Shown here piece after piece: positions 38,758-54,220 of a stretch of DNA of 64,000 nucleotides; position 1 is the stretch's first letter, and the number at the start of each line of letters is the position of its first letter. The notes beneath the pieces are model-generated. The model ran no database searches. It was given only the letters and a program-made list of their open reading frames with translations, and had not been told where the DNA came from. Source of the DNA: Rhizobium sp. TH2 (GTDB taxonomy: Bacteria > Pseudomonadota > Alphaproteobacteria > Rhizobiales > Rhizobiaceae); assembly GCF_024707525.1 (NCBI RefSeq), contig NZ_CP062231.1, forward strand, positions 5,431,501 to 5,495,500. The letters are read 5' to 3'. The position numbers and the translations under genes are program-made.

Positions 38758-38771
38758 GGTTGAAAAAGAAG

Positions 38772-38787
38772 ATGGCGGACAGAGCGG
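38772..38787. repeat. Left attachment-site repeat (att core, copy 1)
   Basis: ATGGCGGACAGAGCGG, identical to 54205-54220, which is the 3' acceptor end plus CCA of tRNA-Ser. It separates the two integrase genes. It is interpreted as the crossover core left by insertion at the tRNA gene. Confidence 0.8.
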
Positions 38788-38928
38788 CCGCCATTCTTCG
38801 GTCCCATGTCGTAGCAACAAGTCTCGGATTGGCATAGATATCAATGTGATAGTTGATTTTAATCGATGCGACATGTTGCAATTCGTTGCCATCAATGTCA
38901 CTATTTTAGGTGGGTACAAAGATGGGTA

Positions 38929-40167
38929 ATGACGTTGCCAAAGATAGCAAAAGAGCTAGTTGCGTTGACCGTGAACCGGCTCAGGCATCCGGGTAAACAC
39001 GCGGTTGGCGGAGTATCTGGACTACTGCTCCAAGTCACGCCCTCCGGTGCGCGGTCATGGTTGCTGCGTGTTGCAATTGACGGCAAGCGCCGCGAACATG
39101 GGCTGGGACCATTCCCAGAAGTCTCACTTGCCGAAGCTCGCGAACGTGCCAGGAAGGCGAAGCGCGAAATTTACGACGGCGTCAATCCAATCGAACGCAA
39201 CCGACAAGCAAGGCTCGTAATCAGCCAGCGTTTAACTTTTGAGAAGGCGGCAGAAAAATATCTAGCGTCAAAGCGGATTGAATTCAGTAACGAAAAACAC
39301 GCCGATCAATGGGAAAGCACATTGGCGACATATGCCACCCCTGTGATTGGTGGCATGGCAGTTTCGGAAATCACCGTCCATGATATTCAAGCCGTTCTTA
39401 AACCGATATGGGAGAGCAAAACAGAAACGGCATCTCGGCTGCGTGGTCGAATAGAAGCTGTTCTTAGCTGGGCAACTGTGAACGGTCATCGGAGTGGCGA
39501 CAATCCGGCACGTTGGAAGGGTAATCTAGAGGCCGTCATGCCAAAACCAGCAAAGCAGTTCGCGGTCAATCATGGCGCAATCCGAATGAAAGAAGCGTCA
39601 GCATGGTTTGCGGCCTTGCGCCAACGGGAGGGGATATCAGCGCGGGCGCTTGAATTTATGGCATTCACGGCCGCACGATCAGGAGAAGTGCGCGGGATGA
39701 CGTGGGACGAAATCGACTCGGACGCCCAACTGTGGGTGATTCCGGCGGCTCGCATGAAGGCAAAGCGCGAGCACCGCGTACCACTCACGGATGATGCAAT
39801 AAAGCTTCTGAAAGCGCTGCCTGATTTGGAGGGTTCATCCTATGTGTTTGCCGCGCCACGTGGTGGCGCGTTGTCGGATATGAGCTTGTCTGCCGTCATG
39901 CGCCGAATGCACGCCGTTGAATTGGAGGGCGGCCGCAAAGGATGGTTGGATCGCAATTCGAACCGTCCCGCTGTTCCACATGGAATTCGCAGCACATTTC
40001 GCGATTGGGCTGCCGAAATTTCTGACTATCCGCAGGAAATGGCCGAAATGGCGCTCGCTCATTCAATCGGCAACAAGGTCGAGGCCGCTTATCGACGTGG
40101 TGACATGATGGAAAAGCGCCGCCACATGATGGCAGATTGGGCTGCTTTTTTAAGAGGCCAGGAATGA
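38929..40167 (+). CDS. P4-type tyrosine integrase
   Basis: A 412-residue integrase of the P4/DUF4102 class. The N-terminal arm-binding domain covers about residues 5-85 (VGGVSGLLLQVTPSGARSWL and GLGPFPEVSLAEARERARK), then core-binding, then catalytic Arg near 249 (AARSGEVRG), HxxR near 351 (HGIRSTFRDW) and Tyr near 387 (AAYRRGDMM). This class targets tRNA 3' ends, matching the 16-bp tRNA-Ser repeat 141 bases upstream. ATG 38929 begins the conserved arm domain; an ATG 7 bases earlier is out of frame. It overlaps the next gene by 4 bases. Confidence 0.93.
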   Translation: MTLPKIAKELVALTVNRLRHPGKHAVGGVSGLLLQVTPSGARSWLLRVAIDGKRREHGLGPFPEVSLAEARERARKAKREIYDGVNPIERNRQARLVISQRLTFEKAAEKYLASKRIEFSNEKHADQWESTLATYATPVIGGMAVSEITVHDIQAVLKPIWESKTETASRLRGRIEAVLSWATVNGHRSGDNPARWKGNLEAVMPKPAKQFAVNHGAIRMKEASAWFAALRQREGISARALEFMAFTAARSGEVRGMTWDEIDSDAQLWVIPAARMKAKREHRVPLTDDAIKLLKALPDLEGSSYVFAAPRGGALSDMSLSAVMRRMHAVELEGGRKGWLDRNSNRPAVPHGIRSTFRDWAAEISDYPQEMAEMALAHSIGNKVEAAYRRGDMMEKRRHMMADWAAFLRGQE

Positions 40168-40550
40168 ACGAAGTTGAATTTGATAGGATTGTTTATCTGG
40201 CCGCGAACGGGGATGCGGAACCCTTGGTCAAATGGTTGCGATCGGACGAGCATATCGGACCATTGGAGCGTGACTACATAGCAGAGCTTTTGGAGCAACT
40301 GATCAAACTCAATCCACCAAAAAACAAGAGGGGAAGGCCGAAGGTTTTCAAGGGCGCGTTGCGTATGGCGGCGATCGAATATGTCAAGCGGACAAGGCGC
40401 GGTGAGAATTCCGATTCTGTTGCATCGAACATAATGGCCAGAACGAAAATCAAAAGGTCAAAGTTATTTGAAGAAATAAAGGAGCTTAAAGATTTTGAAG
40501 ACAAAGCGAAACGGAGCGGCGAAAGGTTCGCAGATATAGAAAACTGGTAG
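40164..40550 (+). CDS. Hypothetical protein coupled to the integrase
   Basis: A 128-residue protein: an acidic N-terminal half (EVEFDRIVYLAANGDAEPLV) and a basic C-terminal half (KNKRGRPKVF, RTRRGENSDS, KIKRSKLFEEIKEL). GRPK resembles an AT-hook. It may bind DNA and assist recombination, for example as an integration host or directionality factor. The start overlaps the integrase stop (ATGA). The function is not established. Confidence 0.65.
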   Translation: MNEVEFDRIVYLAANGDAEPLVKWLRSDEHIGPLERDYIAELLEQLIKLNPPKNKRGRPKVFKGALRMAAIEYVKRTRRGENSDSVASNIMARTKIKRSKLFEEIKELKDFEDKAKRSGERFADIENW

Positions 40551-40572
40551 TCCATTAATAAAGCCGCTTATT

Positions 40573-40624
40573 TGGACCGCTTTATAGGCAGTCCAGATAT
40601 TACGTCACTTAGATGGACCGCTTT
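40573..40624. promoter_or_regulatory. Direct repeats upstream of the AlpA-like gene
   Basis: TGGACCGCTTT occurs at 40573-40583 and 40614-40624, 41 bases apart (about four helical turns). The interval contains no gene and lies 67 bases before the AlpA-like start. It is a possible operator or excisionase-binding array. Confidence 0.55.
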
Positions 40625-40690
40625 CTTTATTGTAAATCGTATGAAGGTGTTTCAGTCTATCCGCATCCAAGGCAACTAGTAGGATGCAGT

Positions 40691-40900
40691 ATGACCAAAT
40701 TTGCTAAATCGCTCACTCACAACAGCCGGTTTTTATCCGATCTGCAATTCGCAGAACGCATCGGCGTTCATCGCACCACCATTTGGCGGCGAATGCGGGA
40801 AGACACCAATTTTCCGAAGCCTGTGAAGCTCTCCGGCGGATGTTCGCGCTGGCGACTAGGCGACGTGGAGGCGTGGGAAAACAGCCTCGCAGCAGCGTGA
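40691..40900 (+). CDS. AlpA-family HTH regulator/excisionase
   Basis: A 69-residue winged HTH protein. The block FLSDLQFAERIGVHRTTIWRRMRED, then NFPKPVKLSGGCSRW, then DVEAWENS, is the AlpA/MerR-like layout used by P4-type elements to control excision. AlpA binds near the integrase or att site and activates or directs excision. ATG 40691 is used; an ATG 7 bases earlier is out of frame. It stands between integrase and replicase genes, as in P4-like satellites. Confidence 0.9.
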   Translation: MTKFAKSLTHNSRFLSDLQFAERIGVHRTTIWRRMREDTNFPKPVKLSGGCSRWRLGDVEAWENSLAAA

Positions 40901-41047
40901 CGGCGGAGACTATGTCCGCGATATTGGCCGAAAAAACGTACGTAAACAATATGTTATAATAGGCTTAAAAAAATACCCACCAAAATACCCGCCCAAAAAG
41001 GTGCCCGGCCAGCCGTGGGACGTTTAACCGGGCGATGGATTTGCCAC

Positions 41048-43498
41048 ATGAATGTACCTCAACTATCGCCACGAAACAATGTGCCCGAAGCACTTAGGGC
41101 CTATCCGCAATTCATCGTGTGGAAGCTTGTGCAAAAAGCCGGTTATCCGAAACCGCGCAAGTTGCCTTTCAACCCCATGACCGGAAACACCGCTAGCGCG
41201 ACCGACCCCACGACTTGGGCCGATTATGCGACGGCTTGCGCAGCGCTAGCGCATGGCAACTTCAATGGCATAGGTTTTGTTTTCACACCGCATGATCCTT
41301 TCGTTTTTATTGATCTGGACGATTGCCGGGACCATGCCACGGGGGACTGGCTTCAATACGCTCGGGTGATCAAAGACCTTTGGTTTCGAACTGCGGCGTG
41401 GGAAACCAGCCAAAGCGGAAACGGCCTGCATGGGATCGTTCGCGTAGCCGATAAGACAGCATTTTCTGGCAAGGCGCGCAAATGGTCCGATACAGAAGGC
41501 CACTCGTTCGAATGCTACATTTCTGGCCGCTTTGTTGCGTTCGGCCACTGTGATTGGGTACCGCCGGAAGTGGGACCGGATTGCGACGTGATGCTTACGA
41601 CTTGGATCGATAGCTTTCCCCCCAGATCAGGCAATGCAAAGCAAATTACGCTTGGTCGCGAGCATTGGCAGGACGCAGCGCGGCCGGGCTACAATGGGCC
41701 GTCGGACGATGACGAATTGATCAGGCGGGCATGTGCGAGCGCTGGCGGGCCGCGTGTAATGTTCGGCGGGAAGGCGTCGTTCCGTGACCTTTGGGAAGGG
41801 AATGCCGTCAAATTGGCGCGATGTTATCCGCCCGGCGGCGACCATCGCGCTTTCGATAGCAGTCAAGCTGAACTGGCGCTTGCCGGCGCGCTCGCGTGGT
41901 GGACAGGATGCAATCCCTTTCGCATCGAACGCTTGATGAACCGTGCGCCAATATGCCAGCGGAAAAAATGGTCGATGCATGCTGACTATCGAGCCCGAAC
42001 AATCAATGAGGTGTGTGGACAGGATCGCCAGTTTATGACGACCCGCACTCAAAAGGGTGATATTGATATAGGCGACGGTTTGGAATTTCCGCCCTTGCCC
42101 GACATCCTGACCCTAGACGAAGCATTGGCTGATTTGGTCTTGGTGGGCGGGTCATATATCGCGAGCCGACGCAGCAAGCGCGTCCTCAAATATGAAAACG
42201 CAATGCGGGACTATGCGGCGTCAATCGTCTTGATTGATAGCGGAGACACTGACCGGGAAGGCAAGCCCGTGTCCAAGCGCGTTCCGGTGTTGAAATTGTG
42301 GATGAACCATCCTGGCCGCATCACAGTAGACGGGCTGACATGGCAACCAGGCGAACCGGAAATTTGCAGTGCGCTTGACCGTTCGCAAGGGGGCAGCCGA
42401 GCCTACAACATGTGGAGCGGTTTACGTATTTCGGAACCGCCCGCAGACTGGGAAGAACGGGTAAGACCATTTCTTGATCATGTTGCTTATCTCTTGCCGA
42501 ACGCCGAGGAGTGCGCGCGCTTCCTTCAATGGCTGGCTCATATCTTCCAAAAACCAAATGAGCTTCCCCATACCCATTATCTCATGATCGCGCGGCAAAC
42601 TGGCATCGGACGCGGGACATTTGCCAGCATTCTAACACGGGCGTTACCCGGCTACGTTGCCACGAATGTGGACGTGAGTGCCGTCATTGGCGGTGGTTTT
42701 AACGAACGCATTTCACAAAAGCTGCTCGCAACCTTTGACGAAATTCGTGAAGGAAATTCATCCGATCGATACTCAAAGAGCGAGGCGCTTAAATCGGCGC
42801 TCACAACCGAGACCCGGAACATCAATGTGAAATATGGCGCGCAATACATCGAGAAAAATTGTTGCCGCTTCCTGATGTTCAGTAACCATCTGGACGCCTT
42901 ACCGTTCGATAATAACGACCGCCGTGTGATCGTTATCGCCAATCCGGACGAACGAAAGCCAATAGAATGGTTCGAACGCCTTCATAGCTTGGCCAATGAT
43001 CCGAAATTCATTGCCAGCGTGCAACGGTATCTCGCGACGCTCGACATAGGCAGTTTCAAAGCGGGGGAGTGCGCCCCAATGAACGCCATCAAAGCACAGG
43101 CACTGTCCAGCATGGAAAGTGACGCGGACAAAGCCGCGCGCCAGTTCCGCGAAGAGTGGCAAGGCGATTTGGCTACCGTTCGGGATTTGAGAGAGTTCAT
43201 CGGCATTGAAGACGCACCAAAGGGGCGTGCCATGAACCATGTCTATGAACGGGCTGGGATGCAATCGAGCGGCCACAAGATAAAAATGAGCAATCACCTC
43301 GAAACCGTATTGATCGTGAAGGGCGCGCACACTGTGGACGATGTGAAACGCATGGATAATCAAATGCTCACGAAATTAATAGCCGATGCAAGGCGGCGAT
43401 GGGCAATTGCACAGGGGGGTGCACCTCCATCCGTCCAACCGGGGCAGATCATCCCCTTCACATTGGGTATCCCAAGTATCCAAAGTATCTCTAGTTAA
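41048..43498 (+). CDS. Bifunctional primase-polymerase / SF3 helicase replicase
   Basis: An 816-residue replication protein. The N-terminus has an AEP (PrimPol) core: FVFIDLDDCRD around 86-96 (catalytic acidic pair) and SGNGLHGIVR near 125. After a linker comes a D5/SF3-type ATPase: Walker A RQTGIGRGT at about 516-524, Walker B TFDEIREG near 563, and RFLMFSNHLDALPFDNNDRR near 605 with sensor Asn and Arg finger. Primase fused to helicase is the hallmark of self-replicating satellites and plasmid-prophages (P4 alpha-like). ATG 41048 begins the family-like start. AAATACCC repeats precede the gene. Confidence 0.9.
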   Translation: MNVPQLSPRNNVPEALRAYPQFIVWKLVQKAGYPKPRKLPFNPMTGNTASATDPTTWADYATACAALAHGNFNGIGFVFTPHDPFVFIDLDDCRDHATGDWLQYARVIKDLWFRTAAWETSQSGNGLHGIVRVADKTAFSGKARKWSDTEGHSFECYISGRFVAFGHCDWVPPEVGPDCDVMLTTWIDSFPPRSGNAKQITLGREHWQDAARPGYNGPSDDDELIRRACASAGGPRVMFGGKASFRDLWEGNAVKLARCYPPGGDHRAFDSSQAELALAGALAWWTGCNPFRIERLMNRAPICQRKKWSMHADYRARTINEVCGQDRQFMTTRTQKGDIDIGDGLEFPPLPDILTLDEALADLVLVGGSYIASRRSKRVLKYENAMRDYAASIVLIDSGDTDREGKPVSKRVPVLKLWMNHPGRITVDGLTWQPGEPEICSALDRSQGGSRAYNMWSGLRISEPPADWEERVRPFLDHVAYLLPNAEECARFLQWLAHIFQKPNELPHTHYLMIARQTGIGRGTFASILTRALPGYVATNVDVSAVIGGGFNERISQKLLATFDEIREGNSSDRYSKSEALKSALTTETRNINVKYGAQYIEKNCCRFLMFSNHLDALPFDNNDRRVIVIANPDERKPIEWFERLHSLANDPKFIASVQRYLATLDIGSFKAGECAPMNAIKAQALSSMESDADKAARQFREEWQGDLATVRDLREFIGIEDAPKGRAMNHVYERAGMQSSGHKIKMSNHLETVLIVKGAHTVDDVKRMDNQMLTKLIADARRRWAIAQGGAPPSVQPGQIIPFTLGIPSIQSISS

Positions 43499-43640
43499 TA
43501 GAACGTCTGGAAAATTTGATTGTATCAATTAATAGCAATAAGTGCTGATCATAATATGGCAAACTACATAAATATGAAAACTGTCACTGTCATTTGCCGT
43601 GATTTCCAATGGAAGGATACTTTGGATACTTTGGATACCC
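43465..43640. other. Candidate replication origin: iteron inverted repeat
   Basis: The arms 43465-43489 and 43616-43640 are 25-base inverse copies with one mismatch. Each arm consists of three 9-base iterations (GGATACTTT-type; the left arm reads AAGTATCCA-type). The left arm overlaps the last codons of the replicase gene and the 126 bases between arms are very AT-rich. Iterons around an AT-rich segment next to a replicase gene fit an ori or crr-like element. Confidence 0.6.
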
Positions 43641-43665
43641 CGCGCTCGCCTATGAGGACAGAACT

Positions 43666-43917
43666 ATGAGGGTTAATCTGATTGAATTTGTGAAGCTTGA
43701 TGCGGCGGAATATGCCGACCTCATAGTCGTGGTGGACCTGTTGAATCTTAGCGTGCCGACAGAGTACATCCCTGGCGAGCTTTACGCCGCTGCATTCATC
43801 ACCATGCGGAAATGCGTTCCTAGCGTTCGGGATTGCAACGACATGGATTTCGTCGCCGACAATCTTAGGATCAACCGGCTTTTGATTGACCGGTGGCGGG
43901 AATTAAAACCAACGTGA
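43666..43917 (+). CDS. Small hypothetical protein, paralogue A
   Basis: An 83-residue protein: VKLDAAEYADLIVVVDLLNL near the start, then AAFITMRKC and NRLLIDRWRELK. It is alignable over its length with the next gene (KLDxADxxLL, MRKC, NRxLI). GAGGA lies 7 bases before ATG 43666. It has no known domain. Pairing of paralogous small genes right after a replicase is seen in satellites for copy-control or antirepressor genes, but that is only positional. Confidence 0.6.
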   Translation: MRVNLIEFVKLDAAEYADLIVVVDLLNLSVPTEYIPGELYAAAFITMRKCVPSVRDCNDMDFVADNLRINRLLIDRWRELKPT

Positions 43918-43937
43918 AGGAACCGAGCATTACTGAT

Positions 43938-44222
43938 ATGAAAGTTTGGAGCGATGGTATCGATATGGCTGATCCAGGGGAAATAGCGAAGTTGGACAAA
44001 GCCGATTTTGATTTATTGATGACGGTTGCTGCCCTGTTTGTGAACGGCCCAAACTCACCCCTGACCGATATTCCTAAAGCCCACATCGCCCCGGCTTTTC
44101 ATCTCATGAGGAAGTGCGGTGCCACGGTGCAAAGTTATGCCACCATGTGCATGGTCGCTTGGGGAATTGAAACTAACAGGTCTTTGATTGCCCAATTACG
44201 GGCCTATGAAAAGTTGCGGTAG
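43938..44222 (+). CDS. Small hypothetical protein, paralogue B
   Basis: A 94-residue protein beginning MKVWSDGIDMADPGEIAKLD and containing ADFDLLMTVAALF, FHLMRKCGATVQS and NRSLIAQLRAYEK. It corresponds segment by segment to the preceding gene. ATG 43938 follows AAGGAACCGAG. A GTG start at 43893 would overlap the upstream gene. Function unknown. Confidence 0.6.
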   Translation: MKVWSDGIDMADPGEIAKLDKADFDLLMTVAALFVNGPNSPLTDIPKAHIAPAFHLMRKCGATVQSYATMCMVAWGIETNRSLIAQLRAYEKLR

Positions 44223-44291
44223 TTACTTTGGAGTTATTTGCAAAGTTTCTGCATAACGCCGAACGCTTACGCGTGGAGCTTGCTTTCAAGG

Positions 44292-44465
44292 TTATGCCCC
44301 TTGCGATCGATACAGGTCTGACCCACCGAGCTTGCCCAAAGCCCGTTCCAGGACGTCACCGATAATGTTTTCCCACCCATTGAACCTGACCAAGAATTCC
44401 CCAAGCGCAACCTGATAATCTGCCTGAATTCCCGGGTCTGCCCAAATCATCATCATCTTCGTCAT
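44292..44465 (-). CDS. Short hypothetical ORF (57 residues)
   Basis: It reads MTKMMMIWADPGIQADYQVA, then LGEFLVRFNGWENIIGDVLE, then RALGKLGGSDL, an amphipathic helix-rich composition that looks protein-like. It fills an otherwise empty 360-base gap between paralogue B and the HTH gene, together with unassigned flanking DNA. It may be a fragment of a larger helical protein. No RBS is convincing. Confidence 0.35.
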   Translation of the reverse strand: MTKMMMIWADPGIQADYQVALGEFLVRFNGWENIIGDVLERALGKLGGSDLYRSQGA

Positions 44466-44583
44466 AGCCGTTTGACATGTTCCCTCGCAGTAAGTGGGGA
44501 CAACAACTTGCTAAATTCGTCCTAAGCGCCTTGTCAGCGATGCTGGGCCGTGCGCGCGACACGACCCAGGATGGTGACGGCGC

Positions 44584-44937
44584 TTAGCTGATGGGGTTTT
44601 TGGTACGATTGGCACCTCCAACCTTCTCCCACGCTTTAAAGCGATGATTGGCGGCGCCAAAGCTAATGTCCATCAGTTCGGCTACCGCATAGCGGGTCTT
44701 TCCAGCATCGAAGAGGCGGTAACAAATTTCGATGCCTCGCGATGTCAGTTTTTCAAGTCCGCCAACCTCGTATTTATTCGCTGGGTCTTTTGGGTCGAAA
44801 GACATATCGAGGGGTTTTTCAGACCTCAGTTGCGTGCGGAGGGCTGAGATGCCCGCCAAAACACGCTCCAGAGCCTGGGTAATGCCATCGAGAGTTTCTC
44901 CGACGGATTTGACGTCATAGGTATGTGATTGGGTCAT
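44584..44937 (-). CDS. HTH-containing hypothetical regulator
   Basis: A 117-residue protein. The N-terminal half is a probable coiled coil (GETLDGITQALERVLAGISALR). The C-terminal 45 residues (TSRGIEICYRLFDAGKTRYA, then VAELMDISFGAANHRFKAW) read as a helix-turn-helix with the AVAELMDISFGAAN turn. The palindrome TCCTTAA-n4-TTAAGGA 12 bases upstream of its start would serve autoregulation. Promoter sharing with the divergent gene at 45122 is likely. Confidence 0.65.
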   Translation of the reverse strand: MTQSHTYDVKSVGETLDGITQALERVLAGISALRTQLRSEKPLDMSFDPKDPANKYEVGGLEKLTSRGIEICYRLFDAGKTRYAVAELMDISFGAANHRFKAWEKVGGANRTKNPIS

Positions 44938-44948
44938 GCGTTTCTCCG

Positions 44949-44966
44949 TCCTTAACTATTTAAGGA
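44949..44966. promoter_or_regulatory. Palindromic operator of the divergent HTH gene
   Basis: TCCTTAA (44949-44955) and TTAAGGA (44960-44966) are exact complements around CTAT. A further half-site TAGTTAAGGATG follows at about 44984. The placement between divergent genes suggests repression by the HTH protein to the left. Confidence 0.6.
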
Positions 44967-45121
44967 TAGGCGTATCTCTAATCTAGTTAAGGATGGTGTC
45001 AAGCTGCTTTTTCGAGCAGGACATTTTCATTGGAATTTCGTCGAGAAAGATGTGGTGGACTAATGAAGCCATATTTCATAGTAGCTCGCTTACGCAGGTA
45101 TCCTCCCAGCCCGAGAATTCC

Positions 45122-45583: not shown

Positions 45584-45587
45584 TACG

Positions 45588-45872
45588 CTATAGGAAGCGG
45601 CGGATATCGTTCTCGGCCGTTTTCATCAAATCATCAACAGCATCCACGCCCGTTTTGTTCTCCACATCGAATTTTGTGATTAAATCAACCTGATAGGATA
45701 GCGTCGCCATCAGCCCATCTGGATAAGTGATAGCGACCGGAACACCTTGCTGCGTGACGTCCACCTTAATGGTCATGGGACTGGTTGGTTCGATGAAGGC
45801 CGTGACTACATAGGTCGTGCCCTTGTGGTCAAACGTTTGGGTTTGAAAAATCTCGCATTCAGCTGTTGGCAA
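45588..45872 (-). CDS. Hypothetical protein
   Basis: A 94-residue acidic protein: MPTAECEIFQTQTFDHKGTT, then YVVTAFIEPTSPMTIKVDVT, then GLMATLSYQVDLITKFDVEN. Predominantly beta at the start with a helical tail. No signal peptide and no known domain. It converges with the preceding gene, 4 bases apart, and diverges from the putative restriction gene at 46016. Confidence 0.55.
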   Translation of the reverse strand: MPTAECEIFQTQTFDHKGTTYVVTAFIEPTSPMTIKVDVTQQGVPVAITYPDGLMATLSYQVDLITKFDVENKTGVDAVDDLMKTAENDIRRFL

Positions 45873-46015
45873 GCGGAAATCTCCTGTTTCGATTTCGAGT
45901 CATGTGGTGCATACGCATCTACAACCCGAGCGTTTTGAATAGCCATTTGTATATATGTTTGACTCTTTAGGGTTGTTCCTAAATTCTTCCTCCGAATCAG
46001 GGGAATCGTCATTTC

Positions 46016-46903: not shown

Positions 46904-48231
46904 ATGCCTGCCAAAACGTCAATTTCTTGCCCATAGGCCTCATAAAGGCGGCTGTCCACGTAGAAGGCGCATTCCTGTTTGGCTTTCAAAGCGCCGTCTT
47001 TAGCAAAAGGCAGCTCGGGCTCGTCCCGGCCGCGTTTCTTGTTCACATAGTCACCCATGGCCTCAACCCCATGGCGCATACGGCGAAGCGTGGCTTTGGC
47101 AGCGGTAAAGGACGCATCCATGCCAATATAGCGGCGGCCGGTGTCGCGGGCTGCCTGGAGCGTCGTGCCGGACCCGCAGAAGGGGTCTATCACTAGGTCG
47201 CCGGGGTCTGAGCTGGCGCCGACAATCATCTTAATCATGTCGAGGTTCTTTTCGGTGGGATAACCCGAAATCTGGATGCTCTGGTGGTGGGCGTCCCGGT
47301 ATTGCTCCCAATAATCGCTGATAGTTCGCTTTTTGTCGGCCGTCCAATAGACCTTCCGGCGCGGGTTGCCATTGCTCGACCAATACATGTCGCCTATCTT
47401 GTCCAACTCCTCCAGCTTTGAGGGTACATACTGCCAATGCTTGCCAGGTGGGGGTAACATGTCCCGCCACGCCATTCCGGTTTCCCCGTTGCGGGTTCCT
47501 GGGGCATGGATGGGCACGAGCTTGTAGCGGCGCCCGAATTCATCCACGCGCGGGTATTCTTTCAAAATCCAGTCGTCCTCGGCCGCTGTGCCGGGCTGAT
47601 TCCATTTATAAGATTTGCCTTTCGTGTAAAAAAGGACGAAGTCGTTGAGGTTCGCGAACTGCTTGCTAGTGAAATTCTTGCTGCTGCATTTCCGGCGCGT
47701 AATTAGATTTCGGAAATTGTCGGTGCCGAAAATCTCGTCCATCACGATTTTTAGATGAGCAACCATCTGGTGCCCGATGTGGACATAGATGGACCCGTCG
47801 TCCGTCATACATTCCCTCATCAGGATAAGGCGGCGGCGCATGAACTCAATGTAGGCAGCCTGCCCCATGCGGTCGTCATAGGCATGTTCAAGGTCGCGAG
47901 AATGAAAATCCAAGCCGGTGCCATAGGGCGGGTCGAGGTAGAAAAGAGTAGCCTTGCGGCCAGTTTGCGCCAGTTCCTGCAGCGCGAAGAAATTATCATC
48001 GAGGACGAAGGCATTGTCTGGGAAGGTGCTCGCTTCAAAAACCCCCTTAGCCCTTAGGTGCAGAAAGTCGCGTTGCACCGGCCTTACGATGTCTATGACG
48101 TCGGCTTTGTGGTGATAAGCAAGAATGGCTTCCTCGCGATCAGAGGGCAAGGGTAAATCATCTTCATAGAAATTCCGTGCAGAAATGGCGTCGGGTGAAT
48201 GTTGTTCGCGTTTTGTGATACCGGTCGCCAT
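46900..48231 (-). CDS. DNA N6-adenine/N4-cytosine methyltransferase (beta class)
   Basis: A 443-residue methyltransferase with motif IV DPPY at 100-103 (FYLDPPYGTG), a target-recognition stretch in the middle, and motif I DPFCGSGTT at about 349-357. The order IV before I defines the beta class. It transfers methyl from SAM to adenine-N6 or cytosine-N4 in a specific sequence, protecting the host from the cognate endonuclease. GGAGG 6 bases before ATG 48231 decides the start. It overlaps the putative restriction gene tail to tail. The length and DPPYGTG form also resemble type III Mod proteins, but no Res gene is present. Confidence 0.9.
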   Translation of the reverse strand: MATGITKREQHSPDAISARNFYEDDLPLPSDREEAILAYHHKADVIDIVRPVQRDFLHLRAKGVFEASTFPDNAFVLDDNFFALQELAQTGRKATLFYLDPPYGTGLDFHSRDLEHAYDDRMGQAAYIEFMRRRLILMRECMTDDGSIYVHIGHQMVAHLKIVMDEIFGTDNFRNLITRRKCSSKNFTSKQFANLNDFVLFYTKGKSYKWNQPGTAAEDDWILKEYPRVDEFGRRYKLVPIHAPGTRNGETGMAWRDMLPPPGKHWQYVPSKLEELDKIGDMYWSSNGNPRRKVYWTADKKRTISDYWEQYRDAHHQSIQISGYPTEKNLDMIKMIVGASSDPGDLVIDPFCGSGTTLQAARDTGRRYIGMDASFTAAKATLRRMRHGVEAMGDYVNKKRGRDEPELPFAKDGALKAKQECAFYVDSRLYEAYGQEIDVLAGI

Positions 48232-48419
48232 ATATGCCTCCATTACGATGTGGTAACCAATTCAGAACAAACTGGCAACTTGTGACGAATAATGGCCATA
48301 ATCAGTCTATCAATCAAGTAGGGGTAGACGAAATAAATAAGGTAACCAGAAGGCAGGAATCGGGTGGCGGGAAGCGGTGATCGCGCTAAAATGGTGTGAC
48401 CGCAATTAGAGGTCACCCG

Positions 48420-49145
48420 ATGCCGCATAATCCTGACGACACCATAGAAGCTACGGTCTCAAAGTACGACTGGACCCGCCTTAAAAGCGAGCTGGATTCT
48501 TATGGATGCACAGTTTTAGAAAGCCTCTTAACCGACGAAGAATGCGCGCAACTTGCGCAGCTCTATAAGGAGCCGGACCTGTTTCGCTCTCATATTGTCA
48601 TGGCCAAGTATGGTTTTGGCCGAGGGGAATACCGCTATTTCCAGTACCCGCTGCCCCAACTCATCGGTAGACTCCGCACGAGCCTCTATCCGCGCCTGGC
48701 TCACGTCGCCAATGACTGGAACATCCGTTTGAATGTTGATGAGCGATTTCCAACATTGCATTCGGAATTCCTGGACCGTTGCCATGCGCTAGGTCAGCAA
48801 CGACCCACACCGTTGCTGCTGCAGTACGGGGAAGGGGATTTCAACTGCCTGCACCAGGACCTATACGGCGAGGTTGCCTTCCCCATCCAGGTCGCCGTTT
48901 TGTTATCAGAGCCGGGGCGCGATTTTACCGGTGGCGAGTTCTGCTTAACAGAACAACGGCCTCGCATGCAGAGCCGCGTAGAGGTAGTTCCCTTGCGGCA
49001 GGGTGACGCCGTAGCCTTCGCTGTTCACAATCGGCCGGTCCAAGGCACCAAGGGTGTTTACCGCGTCAATCTTCGCCATGGTGTCAGCCGTTTACGTTCG
49101 GGCCAAAGGCACACCTTGGGCATCATCTTCCATGATGCTACCTAA
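48420..49145 (+). CDS. 2OG-Fe(II) oxygenase, PF09859-like (nucleic-acid type)
   Basis: A 241-residue oxygenase. Iron ligands His and Asp appear in LHQDLYGE near 150, the distal His in NLRHGVSRLRSGQRHTLG near 220 with Arg for 2-oxoglutarate in the same block, ending HDAT. This arrangement matches the Oxygenase-NA family, which is commonly found beside alkylation-repair genes and is predicted to act on modified bases. AGAGG precedes ATG 48420. Its location directly beside the methyltransferase in a mobile element suggests DNA modification or demodification as part of defence or counter-defence. Confidence 0.8.
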   Translation: MPHNPDDTIEATVSKYDWTRLKSELDSYGCTVLESLLTDEECAQLAQLYKEPDLFRSHIVMAKYGFGRGEYRYFQYPLPQLIGRLRTSLYPRLAHVANDWNIRLNVDERFPTLHSEFLDRCHALGQQRPTPLLLQYGEGDFNCLHQDLYGEVAFPIQVAVLLSEPGRDFTGGEFCLTEQRPRMQSRVEVVPLRQGDAVAFAVHNRPVQGTKGVYRVNLRHGVSRLRSGQRHTLGIIFHDAT

Positions 49146-49412
49146 ATATCTGTCTTGATGAGGTTGCAGGCCAAGAGCCTTGAAGTTGTCTTAACGTCCA
49201 CACGAAGAGGCGCGAAAAAACCATCGGCAGATCGCGACCATTCGGAAGGGCATGTGCAGGGGAGCTGCGAGGTGTCACCCGGCGTGACGACCGAAAACTA
49301 TTGAAATGGCTATGTATTTCAAGACGCTTGAGTGGCCTTTCGGTATCGCTCTAACAGGCCATGGATTGACCGACTGCGCGCATATCATGAGTCGCGATAG
49401 CGTGGAGCGGCT

Positions 49413-49835
49413 CTAAAGATTGTAGCCAATGTGAGTGTACCGTTCACCCGATTTGCCTGCGCATCGTTTCTTCCAGCTTTTGGCGTCGGTCCGAACTGCC
49501 ATATCTTTGCCGATTACCGCTGCCTCAGTAACAATTGCATTGAACGAATTCGTCCCTCGATAAGTGATGCAAAGATTTCCGTCTTTAACTTTCAAAGCGT
49601 TCACCAAAACAAAACTGTCAGGATTCTTCAAAGCAGTGACCATCCTCCGAAGTGCTGCGCTATAAAGCTGATATTCTTTGTCTTCGGCGGCCGCTGTGAT
49701 TTCCAAATTTGTAGGTGGCTTCATTTCCTCGGAGCGTTGTGACCCAATCGCAAGGCGAAGGGCTAATAAGACCACTGGCAATGTTATAACCACCAATGCC
49801 GTGTAACCCAAAAATTTGAATATCCTCCGAAGCAT
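49413..49835 (-). CDS. Membrane-anchored hypothetical protein
   Basis: A 140-residue protein with an N-terminal membrane helix (about residues 8-30, LGYTALVVITLPVVLLALRL) then a periplasmic domain of mixed structure (KEYQLYSAALRRMVTALKNP, DGNLCITYRGTN, KKRCAGK). Two cysteines may pair. It resembles small secreted proteins annotated as hypothetical in rhizobia. It lies alone on the minus strand between the oxygenase and the XRE regulator; its upstream region is shared with the XRE gene. Confidence 0.6.
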   Translation of the reverse strand: MLRRIFKFLGYTALVVITLPVVLLALRLAIGSQRSEEMKPPTNLEITAAAEDKEYQLYSAALRRMVTALKNPDSFVLVNALKVKDGNLCITYRGTNSFNAIVTEAAVIGKDMAVRTDAKSWKKRCAGKSGERYTHIGYNL

Positions 49836-49903
49836 TGATCGTCCCCCTCATTGTGGCAGCGCCGACCTCAGTCGTCCCTCAACAGCTATTAACGCGCCAC
49901 TAA

Positions 49904-49927
49904 ATCCAAGACTGTCAGTCTTTGGAT
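49904..49927. promoter_or_regulatory. Near-palindrome upstream of the XRE regulator
   Basis: ATCCAAGACTG and CAGTCTTTGGAT are complementary around a T, apart from one extra T in the right arm. It lies about 32 bases before the XRE start. It is a plausible autoregulatory operator. Confidence 0.5.
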
Positions 49928-49958
49928 TGTCAAGGCTAAGTTCCGTCTTTTGGCGGAT

Positions 49959-50219
49959 ATGGACCCTAAACATATACTCGGCTGGAATCTACGAAAGCAT
50001 AGGGTGGCGAGCGGGTTGAGCCAGGAACGGCTTGCTCTCGAATCCGGTATCGATCCTGCTTATGTGGGACGCGTAGAGCGCGGACGCGAGAATGTTACCT
50101 TGAATACGCTGGAAGTGCTGGCGGGTACGTTAGGCGTGTCGATAGCTGATTTGTTTCGCGTGCCATTGCCATCAGAGGAGGCACCCAAGCCGCTTCGGGC
50201 AGGAAGAAAAAAGAAATAG
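49959..50219 (+). CDS. XRE-family HTH regulator
   Basis: An 86-residue Cro/C1-type HTH protein: LGWNLRKHRVASGLSQERLA, LESGIDPAYVGRVERGRENV, TLNTLEVLAGTLGVSIADLF. Size and fold match R-M controller (C) proteins as well as small phage regulators. ATG 49959 is used; a TTG three codons earlier is possible. Placement beyond the methyltransferase and oxygenase means it could regulate the R-M genes only in trans. It is followed by two secreted-protein genes on the same strand. Confidence 0.85.
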   Translation: MDPKHILGWNLRKHRVASGLSQERLALESGIDPAYVGRVERGRENVTLNTLEVLAGTLGVSIADLFRVPLPSEEAPKPLRAGRKKK

Positions 50220-50339
50220 TAACTTGCCCGAGGAGGCAGTACGCCTCGGGCCTTACCTACCCCCGCCCGTAGCTATCTGACCTGCTAGACAATCCGAGCG
50301 TACTAGAGCAATCTTGGTGGCTGGCGCGGAGAGGTCTAC

Positions 50340-50987
50340 ATGCGTATCGTAACAATCGTCATGGCTACGCTCGTGGCATCACTCGCCTATGCAGGTGAGG
50401 ATAACGTACGTCATCCTCTATCGGTTGAAGAGCTTGTGAGCAGCCCCGACCTGTCCGGCGTTGACCGCATTCTCATCGGCGGGCGGGTGAGTTTTCTGCA
50501 GTTCAACTGCGACGGCATGCAGCTTTCGGAAGCGGGGGAAGCCATCCGCGTGTGGTATGCCCAAAAGACGTCTGCACAGGAACCAGATTTTACTGGCATT
50601 AGTCTTGGCGCCATGCAAACCCTGCACTCGCTCTCAAAAACGGAAGGTATGCCCGCATTCTGCAAACGACTAATGTCGATGCCGAGCGTTGCACCTTATG
50701 TCGGCAAGACTGGCGTTAGTGCCTTGCGGACCGACATTGGCCGCGCTTTGGCCCTCATCGAATTTGGCGCCAACGAGTGCAAATTGACCAAGTCGGCCGA
50801 AGCGATCGAAATGGAATATGCGTCGAAGTTTGGTGACCTGCCAGAAGATGAGGCGACGGAAATTGAATCGGTCAAAGAAACGCAACTAGTGAAGCTCGCG
50901 GAAGCTTTCCCGACCACCAGGGAGGACCGGGAGATTTTCTGCACTGTGTTCCCCATTCAACAACCAAAGCTGTTCAGGAGGGAATAA
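50340..50987 (+). CDS. Secreted hypothetical protein
   Basis: A 215-residue protein with a Sec signal peptide (MRIVTIVMATLVASLAYAG, cleavage near AYA-GED). The mature part has two similar segments, each with one central Cys and a helix pattern (FNCDGMQLSEAGEAIRVWYA and FGANECKLTKSAEAIEMEYA), each followed by a later segment with another Cys (PAFCKRL; REIFCTV). This indicates an internal duplication with one disulfide per repeat. No known domain. The next gene encodes another secreted protein, so both may act in the periplasm as a pair. Confidence 0.7.
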   Translation: MRIVTIVMATLVASLAYAGEDNVRHPLSVEELVSSPDLSGVDRILIGGRVSFLQFNCDGMQLSEAGEAIRVWYAQKTSAQEPDFTGISLGAMQTLHSLSKTEGMPAFCKRLMSMPSVAPYVGKTGVSALRTDIGRALALIEFGANECKLTKSAEAIEMEYASKFGDLPEDEATEIESVKETQLVKLAEAFPTTREDREIFCTVFPIQQPKLFRRE

Positions 50988-51035
50988 GCTTGCTTGAAGT
51001 CGAAAGCCGGAAGCTACGTAAATTGGGGAGATGAC

Positions 51036-51518
51036 ATGGGGCGTGTGATACCAATTAGCATGGCGTTGGCGATTGTCCTGACGATCTCCGTTCGTGCCGA
51101 AGATACGCAATTTGACCTAGCCGTGAAGACGGCGGAATGGCTTAAGCAGAATGACGCGGATGGCACTTGGTATGCTTATCTGGGCCGAGCCGGTTGGTAT
51201 GCGGCTGTCGTATCGCAGTGCAAAGGTGAACTTGAGTTGACCGCAAGTGGCCGAAAGTTGGTCGAGCCCGCCAAAGCGGTTTATTTTCTCGGCCGAGGCA
51301 AGATCACGGGGGCGCATAACATTGGCGACGATTACCTCGAAAAATGGGTGTGGGCATACGAGGGAAGCTATGATCAAGCGGTACACGGAATATCGCAACT
51401 CTCGCCCGCGCCCGGGGAAGACCCTACACTTTCTTTGCGCAGAAATTGCCTGGTTGCAGGGCAATTGGACAAAGATACAAATGGCAATTTCTACGTCGAA
51501 CGGAAGGCCCGCGAGTAG
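51036..51518 (+). CDS. Secreted hypothetical protein
   Basis: A 160-residue protein with a signal peptide (VIPISMALAIVLTISVRAED, cleavage near VRA-EDT). The mature region contains one Cys after YAAVVSQ (SQCKGELELTASGRKLV) and another late (RRNCLVAG). SQCKGELELTASGRKL parallels the CDGMQLSEAGEAI and CKLTKSAEAI segments of the upstream protein, suggesting a related fold. GGGGAG precedes ATG 51036. Function unknown. Confidence 0.65.
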   Translation: MGRVIPISMALAIVLTISVRAEDTQFDLAVKTAEWLKQNDADGTWYAYLGRAGWYAAVVSQCKGELELTASGRKLVEPAKAVYFLGRGKITGAHNIGDDYLEKWVWAYEGSYDQAVHGISQLSPAPGEDPTLSLRRNCLVAGQLDKDTNGNFYVERKARE

Positions 51519-51599
51519 GTGTCGGGTTATTAGGCTGGGACTGGGTAATCCCGTTGAAGGTTAGCATGCTAGACACAGGTGCGAAGAGCACAGAGCGTT

Positions 51600-51797
51600 A
51601 TGATCAAGTTCGTCATTGCAATTTTCGTCGTCGCTAATACTGCTACACTCGCCTACTTGGTCTCCGTGACACCAAGCGAAGTCACCCCTCAATCAAGAGG
51701 ACCGGACATGGGCGGCGAATCATCAAATTGGCTGAATGGTGGAGCGGGTAACGGAAGTTACTGTCCCGCGCTCATTGAAATTACTACATTTTACTGA
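51600..51797 (+). CDS. Small hypothetical protein with N-terminal hydrophobic helix
   Basis: A 65-residue reading frame starting MIKFVIAIFVVANTATLAYL, a single membrane or signal helix, followed by a polar, glycine-rich tail (GGESSNWLNGGAGNGSY). It has no clear RBS. It could be a small membrane protein or a decayed signal-peptide gene of the same kind as its two upstream neighbours. Confidence 0.4.
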   Translation: MIKFVIAIFVVANTATLAYLVSVTPSEVTPQSRGPDMGGESSNWLNGGAGNGSYCPALIEITTFY

Positions 51798-52154
51798 TTA
51801 TCTTAAGATTTCGGGCGCATAAGTGCGGATCATATCTAATTCTTTACTGTCGGAAGACCATGCTTGGTCGCAGCGAGGCAGGGAACCAGTCGCCCAACAA
51901 CTATACTGCCTTCGATATACTGGTGAATGTCCGCGACGCGGGCGATCTGTTATCACCTGGGTCACCCGGGGCGCACGCCGACATTATCCGCATCGATGGC
52001 AGGGTCAACGCACTGATGCGGCTCTGTCCAGATCTTGTCGTAGAGATATGTGGACCGTTGGTGCGCGCTACGGCGACTGCGACGACTTCGCTATGGCCAA
52101 GCGCGCGTAGGCAGACCGCGTTCCTCTCACTGCCCGTCAATCAGTCGAAGAGAC
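51798..52154. other. Intergenic region, possible decayed gene
   Basis: One frame (about 51860-52050) reads protein-like (YTAFDILVNVRDAGDLLSPG, then HADIIRIDGRVNALMRLCPD) and a shift would lead into GDCDDFAMAKRA and a stop. No intact gene is accepted. It may be a frameshifted remnant. Confidence 0.35.
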
Positions 52155-52784
52155 TCACATTGGTAAACCACGGTCGTCAAAGATTTCCAAAGCGCGTGGG
52201 AGGGCCGTGACGACGCTGATCACCGCTGGCATTAAAAACAGCAAAGCGCCTAACATAAACATGCTGAAGCAAACCATCGGCATTCGCATCCCCTGACGAT
52301 CAAGCAATGTATAATAGTCAGATGCCAGGACAGAGGTGGCTATTCCCTCGGACTTCGCAATGTCAAGGTCGGTCTGTTGAACGCGGAGATTTGCTCGTTG
52401 AACCACAGAATCGGAAGGAATACTCTCTATCGCTCGCGCAGCATGGTCTGGCTCAGATGGATCGAGCCCTCGGACAACATAGTCCACGTAGTCGCGACGA
52501 TCGCGAAACCGTTTAATGGGATAAGGGCAAAAGAGCCAATAGATGCTCATCGCAAACAAGATAAAGAGGCCGCCCATAAACATAGTTTTGAATGGCGCGG
52601 CCACAACCGTACCTGTCGTGGCAGCGAGACCCTTAGATACAAAGGCATACTTCTCGCTGAAAACGATAGCGTAGCCCAATACGGACAAAAGGCTTGTCGC
52701 TTGCGGCAACCGAGATTGCATCACGGCAGCACACATTGACCAACGCACCCAAAAAGAGCGATCTTCCCTTAGCACCGAAGACAC
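52155..52784 (-). CDS. Membrane hypothetical protein, third gene of a three-gene unit
   Basis: About 209 residues from GTG 52784. Four hydrophobic segments: near residues 33-48, 63-85 (MGGLFILFAMSIYWLFCPY), 165-180 and 182-197 (MLGALLFLMPAVISVVTA). A cytoplasmic or periplasmic helical domain lies between pairs (RRDYVDYVVRGLDPSEPDHA). There is no RBS before the GTG, and the frame is open straight back to the TGA of the upstream gene, which is in the same frame. The true start is therefore uncertain: it could be made by readthrough or reinitiation. Confidence 0.55.
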   Translation of the reverse strand: MSSVLREDRSFWVRWSMCAAVMQSRLPQATSLLSVLGYAIVFSEKYAFVSKGLAATTGTVVAAPFKTMFMGGLFILFAMSIYWLFCPYPIKRFRDRRDYVDYVVRGLDPSEPDHAARAIESIPSDSVVQRANLRVQQTDLDIAKSEGIATSVLASDYYTLLDRQGMRMPMVCFSMFMLGALLFLMPAVISVVTALPRALEIFDDRGLPM

Positions 52785-52802
52785 CAGTAATTGTTCAAGA
52801 AG

Positions 52803-53285
52803 TCAGCTCATCTGTTGATTAGGGTTCGTCACTTCAAATTTTTTACGGCTACGAATTTTTGCCCCCAGGTCATTCGCGTCGTTCGTTCTTTGGAACCAGA
52901 AAAATCCCATTATAATAGTAAGCAAAAGCGATACGCAGCATATCAGCAACACAGCCAAGTCCTGAGATCCAATCGGGTTCTGAGCATTTCCGAGCTTTGG
53001 TAGCTTTTCCATCGCCGGCACGATCGACCCAAGAAATATCCCCAGCGTCCCCCAAAATATTTCTACCACGTGGTCTTTTCGGAGTTCTGACAGCTGGTTT
53101 AATTCCATATCGCTGATCCAGTGCTCGATCGGGTTTTCATCAAATGTGACGTGCGGTGTCCGTCTAGGAACGTTTTGGAGTGCGCGCCCGCTGTCAGTCG
53201 GTATCACTTGTTCGCTAAAAAGGCGGTCTTTGGATACGCGGGAACCGCCACCCGAGGCGGCGTTAGCCTTGGGTTTGGTCGCCAT
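52803..53285 (-). CDS. Membrane hypothetical protein, second gene of a three-gene unit
   Basis: A 160-residue protein with a long polar N-terminus (MATKPKANAASGGGSRVSKD) and two membrane helices (about residues 82-98 and 118-138, AVLLICCVSLLLTIIMGFFW). It ends with a basic tail KIRSRKKFEV. It overlaps the upstream gene by 23 bases in another frame, so the two are co-translated. The topology recalls small effector or sensor subunits of membrane-based defence operons, but no motif proves it. Confidence 0.55.
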   Translation of the reverse strand: MATKPKANAASGGGSRVSKDRLFSEQVIPTDSGRALQNVPRRTPHVTFDENPIEHWISDMELNQLSELRKDHVVEIFWGTLGIFLGSIVPAMEKLPKLGNAQNPIGSQDLAVLLICCVSLLLTIIMGFFWFQRTNDANDLGAKIRSRKKFEVTNPNQQMS

Positions 53286-53559
53286 CGCCGGCCCCCATGA
53301 TGGCATCGATCTCCTCTTGGAAGGGCTCCAACAGGGACTGCAGAACATTCTTCAGATCGTAGGCTTGGAGTGGCGTCATCTGGATTGCCACGCGGTAAGC
53401 GACATGTCCCGACGGCCCCATAGTCTCGCCAAACGCGATTCTGAATTTGCCTGGCACGCCTCCCTCAGTTGAGACAAGAAACCTGTCCACGACTGCGGTT
53501 GGAACTGCATAAGATGCGGATAAATCGTCCGCAGAGACAGTTTTGGGTTTTTCGTACAT
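53263..53559 (-). CDS. DUF3467-like hypothetical protein, first gene of a three-gene unit
   Basis: A 98-residue protein. FRIAFGETMGPSGHVAYRVA followed by IQMTPLQAYDLKNVLQSLLE matches the beta-then-helix layout of DUF3467-like proteins (dEvxxdFG..., ...lsPxxAkxLxxxL). Such proteins are small, soluble and of unknown function. ATG 53559 starts the unit; the stop lies inside the next gene. This gene and the following two membrane proteins likely form one transcript at the right end of the element. Confidence 0.6.
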   Translation of the reverse strand: MYEKPKTVSADDLSASYAVPTAVVDRFLVSTEGGVPGKFRIAFGETMGPSGHVAYRVAIQMTPLQAYDLKNVLQSLLEPFQEEIDAIMGAGDGDQTQG

Positions 53560-54204
53560 GAAGAGCCCTTTTTAACAACTGAGCTATCCATATACGATTC
53601 TGTGCAGAAGAAGGGATACGCTTTGCACATGAACGGGCCGCGTTAAGCAGTACCGTTTCCCGATCGCCACCTCGAATGCTAGGAAGCTATCGAATACCCC
53701 GTCATCGCTATCGTCGATGAGGGCAAGGCAGTCGGCGCGTCAATCGCGGATGTTGCCACAGCTCTGGTCGCCTTGGCGACAATGTCATGCTGGCTGATGC
53801 AGCGAACGGCGATACTGAGCGATAGTTCGCGGAGTCTCCAGGCGCGGACAAAACAGCGTAAGTGAAACGCCGTGACACGAATGAAAGGAATTTCGACCAA
53901 GCATTCAGACCGTAGGGCCGACCTGAAATCTAGGTTGGTATATGACGAGCCGAACCAAGCCTGTCAACGCGTTCGATGAAATCTGCGACGCAAATGCCTC
54001 TACGCTTCCGTCGCGCCTAAGCCGATAATTGCTCTTATGGACGTGAGCTGTAATCCGGACGGCGGTGAGCAGTAACGTCTTGCCCGATGGCGGAGCGTTA
54101 TATCGCGAAGTAGCGATTAGTAGCGCATATTTTGAGGGGAAGGTTGGTGGGTTAAAATGATCCTTGGCTCTAAGTACATGAAAAAATGTAATTTTTTTGG
54201 GGTA
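53560..54204. other. Non-coding or degenerate right end of the element
   Basis: No intact gene was accepted in 645 bases. A 60-codon open stretch without a start (about 53690-53872, EYPVIAIVDEGKAVGASIAD type) looks like a remnant. A tRNA-like start (GGATAGCTCAGTTG on the minus strand near 53578-53591) lacks the rest of a tRNA. Confidence 0.4.
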
Positions 54205-54220
54205 ATGGCGGACAGAGCGG
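54205..54220. repeat. Right attachment-site repeat (att core, copy 2)
   Basis: ATGGCGGACAGAGCGG, exact copy of 38772-38787. On the minus strand it is the tRNA-Ser 3' acceptor strand, discriminator and encoded CCA. Integration therefore keeps a whole tRNA on the right side. Confidence 0.8.

Follow-up and report, generated by a model that had tools for sequence, protein, structure and literature searches.

In this work we have analysed a window of 64 kb (the whole stretch of DNA under study) from Rhizobium sp. TH2, in which a perfect 16-bp direct repeat, ATGGCGGACAGAGCGG, lies at 38772-38787 (attL) and again at 54205-54220 (attR). No further exact copy occurs in the window; with up to three mismatches allowed there are six matches, against 1.04 expected. 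The repeat consists of the final 15 nt of a predicted tRNA-Ser(GGA) gene (54206-54295, minus strand) plus one base, and the tRNA is kept intact. Between the repeats lies a low-GC insert of 15,433 bp (38788-54220), with a GC content of 51.9% against 61.4% and 60.6% (about 61%). When the flanks are joined (38787|54221), a 164-nt alignment at 82% runs across the junction in one congener (G001); in a second (G003) a homologue of the left-flank integrase stands directly against the same tRNA, and in a third (G005) the match to the right flank ends at 54205. Since the left-flank homologue is found directly at the same tRNA in two congeners, we regard the ends of the insert as real. Site-specific recombination into the 3' end of the tRNA-Ser(GGA) gene placed the element here, and the initial annotation, which had described a discrete integrative element bordered by a repeat equal to the tRNA end, is borne out by the repeat, the drop in GC and the congener junctions. 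The left flank is itself more than ordinary chromosome: it encodes a further tyrosine integrase, of a different type (37555-38757), which stops 15 bp short of the left repeat, and no exact piece of the tRNA end of 12 nt or more, which could be the distal copy for this neighbour, was found in the 45 kb leftward.

The core of the element reads, entirely on the plus strand, integrase, an ATGA-overlapping small gene, alpA, a primase/polymerase-helicase and a predicted origin; the accessory ORFs that come after it lie on both strands. The predicted integrase (38926-40167, alternative start ATG 38866) has the Pfam domains Arm-DNA-bind_3, Phage_int_M and Phage_integrase (PF13356, PF22022, PF00589) and keeps its catalytic residues, with R251, H352/R355, H379 and Y389 all present (numbering of the 413-aa form). 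The gene overlapping it (40164-40550, plus strand, junction GGAATGAACG) encodes an orphan protein of 128 aa in the position of the PICMI gene iolg; a protein search returned only the protein itself, and its predicted structure is all-helical with a mean pLDDT of 67. An AlpA-like regulator or excisionase follows (40688-40900, plus strand, alternative start 40613), as had been proposed, matching PF05930 with 27.9 bits at a cut-off of 21 and phrog_66 at 1.7e-9. The replicase (41015-43498, plus strand) is a PrimPol-helicase of the NrS-1 type, in agreement with the PrimPol/SF3 protein proposed at first: it carries the domains NrS-1 HBD and DUF5906 (PF22763, PF19263) and matches phrog_1829 (6.7e-79) and the NrS-1 primase chains 6a9w, 7rr4 and 6k9e of the PDB. 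With the NrS-1 phage polymerase (PMC8718748, PMC7102993) it shares the PrimPol, helix-bundle and SF3-like helicase domains and retains the primase motifs, but it belongs to an island rather than a phage, and the Walker A lysine of NrS-1 is an arginine in 20/20 sequences of our alignment A1, at a site placed by eye. As a separate observation, the ORFs read on contig C4 of this genome include a helicase-like protein.

At the replicase stop codon we find a predicted replication origin (43465-43640), made of two oppositely oriented 25-nt iteron arms (43465-43489 and 43616-43640) around a 126-nt spacer, 68% AT, with the left arm falling in the final 34 nt of the replicase gene. Its score was reached by 0/121 control windows of the same stretch and by 0/500 first-order random sequences, so the candidate origin of the initial annotation goes beyond all controls, which supports a replication module with a credible predicted origin. 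The same plan exceeds all of a locus's own controls in 10 of the 25 distinct replicase loci, this element counted, and in 14 of the 25 no inverted repeat stands out at the stop codon, for two of them because the contig end is too near. It is also found in three contigs with phage-like terminase genes (L059-L061), and because of this the plan marks a replicon, not a satellite life. These contigs have a terminase-like block in common, with a Terminase_2 small subunit in L061 and homologues of it in the other two; their large-terminase and portal labels are our reading of the sequences, and the large terminase has no Pfam match. Could the NrS-1 priming motif TTTGGTTA explain the iterons? They contain TTTGGATA three times, a 7/8 match to that motif, but we rejected this explanation: 17 of the 20 one-mismatch copies in the element lie outside the predicted origin, and of the 11 other origins examined just two (L062 and L063) have such a copy.

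The cargo includes a BstEII-type restriction endonuclease (46016-46903, plus strand), which matches PDB 9ibq (BstEII) with an E-value of 5.8e-57 over residues 12-294. It adjoins a convergent DNA methyltransferase with a DPPY motif (46900-48243, minus strand; PF01555, 8.6e-46; PADLOC MTase_II, 1.4e-134), and the two constitute a Type II restriction-modification pair of the BstEII type, in keeping with the defence-type cargo noted earlier. We take GGTNACC, the specificity of the BstEII type, to be the putative target of this endonuclease; the element shows no avoidance of it, with 6 sites against 2.2 expected. Further along the plus strand lie a 2OG-Fe(II) oxygenase (48396-49145; PF09859, 6.9e-86) and an HTH regulator resembling restriction-modification control proteins (49950-50219; HTH_3, 4e-13; PADLOC Control_protein, 3.9e-14). 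The other ORFs are without family. Two small ones follow the origin on the plus strand, at 43667-43917 (the reading frame is open from 43609, within the iterons) and 43893-44222 (109 aa), and no similarity was seen when the two were compared. An ORF of 117 aa (44584-44937, minus strand) was considered as a small terminase and rejected, as it has only a weak HTH match (PF13384, E 0.088). ORFs of 196 aa (44993-45583, plus strand), 94 aa (45588-45872, minus strand) and 140 aa (49413-49835, minus strand) match no family, nor do two of 215 and 174 aa (50340-51518, plus strand) at cut-off, the first also being without a PHROG at E <0.1; three of 209, 181 and 98 aa (52155-53559, minus strand) have no Pfam family, and the first two of them no PHROG at E <0.1.

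The initial annotation had described an element without structural or conjugation genes, and none was recognised at cut-off among its non-redundant ORFs (at least 70 aa), of which Pfam covered 19/23 singly and 23/23 in a tally that lists 25 of the 27 families, and PHROGs 13/23. Within the same scope no packaging family, whether terS, psu, sid, capsid or another, was recognised, nor were phage lytic genes or the element's own capsid, portal and terminase genes that are the criterion for cf-PICIs. When the complete element was compared as DNA with phages and plasmids at near-identity, no match was obtained. No relaxase family reached cut-off in the ORFs of the element; the HTH protein at 49950-50219 has a far MobT match of 18.4 against the 600 bits of the cut-off.

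What kind of element is this? Gram-negative PICIs are described as being about 12-15 kb long, with unidirectional transcription and an attachment site never used by prophages, and as showing phage-dependent induction, packaging and interference; their origin commonly lies at the 3' end of the replication gene, where two iteron sets flank an AT-rich region (PMC6092414). With PICIs of the EcCICFT073 type the element shares an integrase at one end, AlpA, a fused primase-replication protein, apparently this origin plan, accessory genes, a similar size and the absence of structural genes. It differs from them in host class, in its NrS-1-type PrimPol, in having no recognised terS or interference gene and in bearing accessory genes on both strands. 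The PICMIs of Vibrionaceae, complete ones being reported only from Vibrio, have the same gene order: as in PICMI115, the integrase is followed by an ATGA-overlapping gene, alpA and a prim with DUF5906, then by a variable region up to the att site, and packaging genes are lacking (PMC10803314). The co-location of int, alpA and prim, one of the PICMI criteria, is found here, whereas the integration at fis by which PICMIs are defined and their very small size (6.7 kb on average) contrast with tRNA-Ser(GGA), 15.4 kb and another host class. Judged by its sequence, the anatomy fits Gram-negative PICIs and PICMIs better than P4.

The P4-like satellite proposed at first, for which CP4-like integrase domains, AlpA, a one-protein primase-helicase, the relative order int-alpA-replicase, the tRNA 3' site and defence cargo all speak, is scarcely tenable: the psu-delta-sid block, which P4-like elements carry between these two genes, int and alpA (PMC8628076), has no counterpart among the Pfam and PHROGs matches of the element's ORFs, and the replicase is of the NrS-1 type. 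We therefore reject P4 membership on gene content, and of the P4-type integrase claimed at the border the domain type and the general gene order hold, the family does not.

The relatives of the element are of several kinds. The replicase is present in 1/9 genomes of the genus, our own counted, and in 2/7 congeners examined the same tRNA and core are used by capsid-bearing elements of about 10 kb, which may be prophage remnants or satellites. Other genera also have a bare core resembling this one, in two cases next to a different tRNA: at tRNA-Ser(TGA), with a 14-bp repeat, in one genome (G1216), and beside tRNA-Met in another (G038). Four replicase relatives are named Mesorhizobium. A metagenomic element (L062) encodes a related replicase (42.6% over residues 229-789) together with Terminase_4, a small terminase, Peptidase_S78, Phage_capsid and an integrase between 51-bp tRNA-Met repeats; the primase part of its replicase differs, its integrase lies at the opposite end, and AlpA was not found in it.

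We propose, with a probability of roughly 0.6, that 38788-54220 is a phage satellite of the PICI/PICMI type, or a close relative of that kind. This reading rests on the precise ends, the PICMI gene order, the PICI origin plan, L062, the capsid-bearing elements of congeners, the occurrence of this core beside other tRNAs and the BstEII match; satellite status proper, that is, packaging by a phage, we infer. Against it we count that no packaging family was recognised in the ORFs scanned, that blastn at E ≤1 showed no DNA, such as a packaging site, in common between the element and either of the resident prophage-like regions (two, of 59.7 kb each), that the fis site and 6.7-kb size of PICMIs are not seen, that the replicase is in just 1/9 genomes of the genus, that 14 of the 25 loci have no inverted repeat that stands out at the stop codon, that terminase-bearing contigs share the origin plan, that L062 differs as described, and that the int-overlapping gene has no relatives.

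The main rival is a cryptic integrative replicon or integrative mobilizable element, which would excise, replicate like a plasmid and, with no dedicated phage helper, spread either by conjugation, using an oriT that went unrecognised, or by fortuitous transduction. Integrated elements bearing a PrimPol are a reported class, many at tRNA genes and some without phage or conjugation genes, and they share with ours the tRNA site, direct repeats, an AEP-family PrimPol and the lack of phage and conjugation genes (PMC5862659); that survey is centred on PrimPol-PV1 families, and the word 'satellite' is absent from its main text. The lack of a recognised packaging gene would suit such an element, and the matches listed include four plasmids from enterobacteria (9-17 kb) with 32-35% identity to the replicase over its helicase half. 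Nevertheless, the lack of a relaxase family at cut-off, the satellite features AlpA and PICI-type origin, and the existence of a relative with small terminase and capsid make it, in our view, unlikely. Still less probable is a prophage remnant that has lost its structural genes and been left with int, alpA and the replicase. The same replicase and origin plan in the contigs with a common terminase-like block would favour it, but the core genes are open with their motifs kept, the bare core recurs in other genera and the ends are precise.

We hypothesize that, in the life of a PICI/PICMI-type satellite, a helper phage entering or waking would raise AlpA, which together with the int-overlapping protein would help the integrase to excise a circle. 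The PrimPol-helicase would then bind the iterons, melt the AT-rich spacer and copy the circle. Because no packaging gene is recognised in the element, the helper's terminase would take up its DNA, perhaps in concatemeric form and into heads that stay unmodified, the mode reported for PICMI115 (PMC10803314). While the element is integrated, its BstEII-type system would guard it and the host against unmodified phages. Perhaps, and this broader proposal is possible yet rather doubtful, Alphaproteobacteria have their own PICI-type lineage founded on a single replicon, in which the gene of a PrimPol-helicase of the NrS-1 type has an inverted-iteron origin at the stop codon; this replicon would be common to phages and be combined with a small terminase and capsid, as in L062, or with cargo alone, as here; bare members would travel, as concatemers, in helper heads that are left unmodified and would repay this by restricting rival phages.

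In the satellite papers considered here, the PICIs and PICMIs described come chiefly from Gammaproteobacteria and Gram-positive bacteria, and the earlier remark that such elements are little described in Alphaproteobacteria agrees with our literature searches, which covered the main texts of open-licence papers. If a form that shares this origin plan recurs in the class, satellite parasitism would reach a group in which soil bacteria and plant partners abound. The element offers a predicted origin and a putative excision module open to direct testing and, if our reading is true, it would represent one route by which phages could move restriction genes.

The repeat of 16 bp occurs in perfect copies at 38772-38787 and 54205-54220 of the window (G000:C1:5431501-5495500 in a host genome of 6.4 Mb and 4 contigs). 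Because the tRNA-Ser(GGA) gene occupies 54206-54295 on the minus strand, the repeat corresponds to the 3' end of the tRNA, and the gene itself is intact; the direct repeat described in the initial annotation is thus borne out, both in its exact copies and in coordinates that fit the tRNA. The GC content between the repeats is 51.9%, versus 61.4% (1-33000) and 60.6% (54296-64000) in the flanks. The same tRNA locus was compared in seven of the eight other genomes of the genus, and all seven match the window neighbourhood on the right side of the tRNA, the G005 match to the right flank (80.8%, 3,151 columns) ending at 54205. In the congeners G001 and G003 the gene directly adjoining the tRNA is homologous to the integrase in the left flank of the window (protein identity 70% and 65%), and when the window flanks were joined by script, an alignment of 164 nt with G001 (82%) spanned the join. 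These two observations indicate that 15,433 bp were inserted between the left-flank integrase and the tRNA, and we infer that one tRNA site has been used by two elements in turn.

The other element type at this tRNA-Ser is about 10 kb long in both G001 (locus L028, 2675-13122, core copies at 2675 and 13107) and G003 (locus L031, 3131-13055, core copies at 3131 and 13040). Both elements carry an HK97-type capsid gene, accompanied in G001 by a prohead protease; the capsid genes have no mutual similarity, and the two elements share related integrases and a single Cys-rich protein. A Pfam tally covered 84 ORFs, among them 17 of L028 and 15 of L031; apart from one GTA-gp10-like protein in L031, the families listed (25 of 27) included none of terminase, portal or tail. 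One ORF of this pooled set matches RE_endonuc (PF19778, 2.7e-29). The left flank of the window retains the integrase of this element type (37555-38757), which ends 15 bp before the left repeat copy, together with an Arc-like gene (35977-36516) that belongs to the same Pfam family; matches of the L028 and L031 ORFs to window 20000-38787 are confined to the integrase. A further integrase lies at 33243-34499. No distal repeat was found for 33243-38771, which is probably a remnant of another element.

The replicase of the inserted element (41015-43498, plus strand) consists of PrimPol, helix-bundle and DUF5906 helicase domains and matches the solved NrS-1 chains. Its primase motif residues are invariant in all 20 sequences of our alignment (own included), and in all 20 an arginine stands at the position, matched by eye, of the catalytic Walker A lysine of the NrS-1 helicase (window 42599-42619, replicase residues 529-535; lysine placed according to PMC7102993). 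With the own genome counted each time, the replicase is present in 1/9 genomes of the genus, 10/394 of the family (E <= 1e-20), 2/289 of the class and, in a profile search at 1e-120, 1/397 of the order; two large genera gave 0/148 and 3/146. Among 7,999 candidate proteins scored, 180 were relatives at E <= 1e-3, and Mesorhizobium is the name of 4 among the 120 of these that were listed. Named relatives of the replicase and of the endonuclease discussed below come from Mesorhizobium, Rhizobium, Shinella and an alphaproteobacterial MAG.

At the replicase stop codon lie two 25-nt arms made up of ~9-bp iterons; they are oppositely oriented and separated by a 126-nt spacer of 68% AT, and the left arm starts 34 nt before the last base of the gene. 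In a stretch of 300 nt centred on the region of the replicase stop we scored the best inverted repeat, with the remaining 300-nt windows of each locus as controls. The candidate origin (43465-43640) holds up as a sequence feature, since its score of 22 was matched neither by its 121 controls (maximum 11) nor by 500 first-order random sequences (maximum 13). The 26 loci tested represent 25 distinct ones, because L058 and L081 are the same element (identical over 11,824 nt); L035, in which no stop is present, and L071-L074, below the script threshold, were left out. No control reached the locus score in 10 of the 25 (window, L050, L058/L081, L059, L060, L061, L062, L064, L066, L079), and in L063 1/117 controls equalled or exceeded it. 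The test failed in 14 (L048, L051-L054, L056, L057, L065, L067-L070, L049, L055); among these misses, L048 holds direct and inverted copies of TACCCACAC, and the contigs of L049 and L055 end 156 and 94 nt past the replicase stop. The iteron letters vary among lineages and the origin plan is constant. The features of PICI satellites include an origin immediately 3' of the replication gene, and the origin function of one PICI was tested (PMC6092414). A small-terminase gene is common to L059-L061 (assigned to Terminase_2 in L061, with homologues in the other two). These contigs resemble phages, and the plan therefore marks this replicon in phages too.

The integrase (38926-40167, plus strand) carries the R, H-R, H, Y residue set, and its stop overlaps the start of the next gene (128 aa) as ATGA; a search of a large protein set for relatives of this 128-aa protein returned only itself. 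The AlpA gene (40688-40900, plus strand) and then the replicase follow. A search for this synteny, suggested in the initial annotation, found the order integrase, AlpA-like gene, replicase at 7 of 14 cellular loci examined (present in window, L035, L049, L055, L057, L079 and L081; the others were L048, L050-L054 and L056). Those same seven loci supplied the sequences for the AlpA profile; independent backing comes from Pfam matches exceeding the cut-off (window and L081) and from tblastn hits with an E of 1e-3 or better at the loci in genomes G038, G312 and G1216. No Pfam AlpA match was found in L079, and the profile found AlpA in 0/17 IMG/VR contigs. The ATGA overlap recurs in L055 and L079 (there with a 64-aa ORF); the overlap is 1 nt in L049, the genes are contiguous in L057, and L035 and L081 have none. 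In G1216 the end of tRNA-Ser(TGA) is repeated over 14 bp at a distance of 11.8 kb. The core in G038 adjoins tRNA-Met, with no repeat found in the stretch examined, and a repeat search in G1272 found none. L079 (13163-15479) and L081 (6881-9408), distant elements within one genus, have four consecutive unknown genes in common after the replicase (31-45% identity), one of them with a sub-cut-off DUF5681 match; this block was not found in the window (tblastn, E 0.01). The most telling IMG/VR relative is L062 (IMGVR_UViG_3300027282_000032, 284-9571), with tRNA-Met and a 51-bp repeat 9.2 kb away. Between its repeats lie a replicase with the same Pfam pair (42.6% identity over residues 229-789 of ours, the primase part differing), Terminase_4 (small terminase), Peptidase_S78 (prohead protease), Phage_capsid and an integrase; portal and large terminase were absent among the 8 ORFs scanned. 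We regard it as a candidate capsid-bearing satellite.

The cargo region occupies the same place as the prim-fis hotspot of the PICMI satellites (PMC10803314). The protein encoded at 46016-46903 is similar to BstEII throughout (E 5.8e-57), and its gene is convergent with that of a DPPY-type DNA methyltransferase, the two forming, by homology, an R-M pair; "defence-type cargo" was therefore the right term for this pair. The remaining cargo comprises a control-protein-like HTH, a PF09859 oxygenase and several ORFs of no assigned function.

How might such an element live? We infer every step after its integration. The integrated element would be quiet, with restriction active; helper entry would raise AlpA, the integrase would then excise the element, the PrimPol-helicase would open the iteron origin and copy the DNA, and the helper would pack it. 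In PICMI115, excision needs int, alpA and the int-overlapping gene, and prim loss lowers copy number (PMC10803314). Could a helper reside in the same genome? Capsid and portal genes occur at two other loci (C1:1218438-1221345 and C1:1369164-1375646), which may be prophage head modules, possible helpers, or belong to gene transfer agents. Neither of the 59.7-kb regions surrounding these loci has DNA in common with the element (E <= 1). The word alphaproteobacteria is absent from the main text of the papers on PICMIs (PMC10803314), PICIs (PMC6092414) and P4 (PMC8628076). Int-alpA-prim loci outside Vibrio had been noticed, apparently without description, as PMC10803314 counts 135 such elements in complete genomes, 67 of them in Vibrionaceae, and mentions "incomplete PICMI-like variants" elsewhere. 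Judged from its sequence and the open-licence literature, the element would be a variant form of a known satellite kind, with a putative satellite life in Rhizobium.
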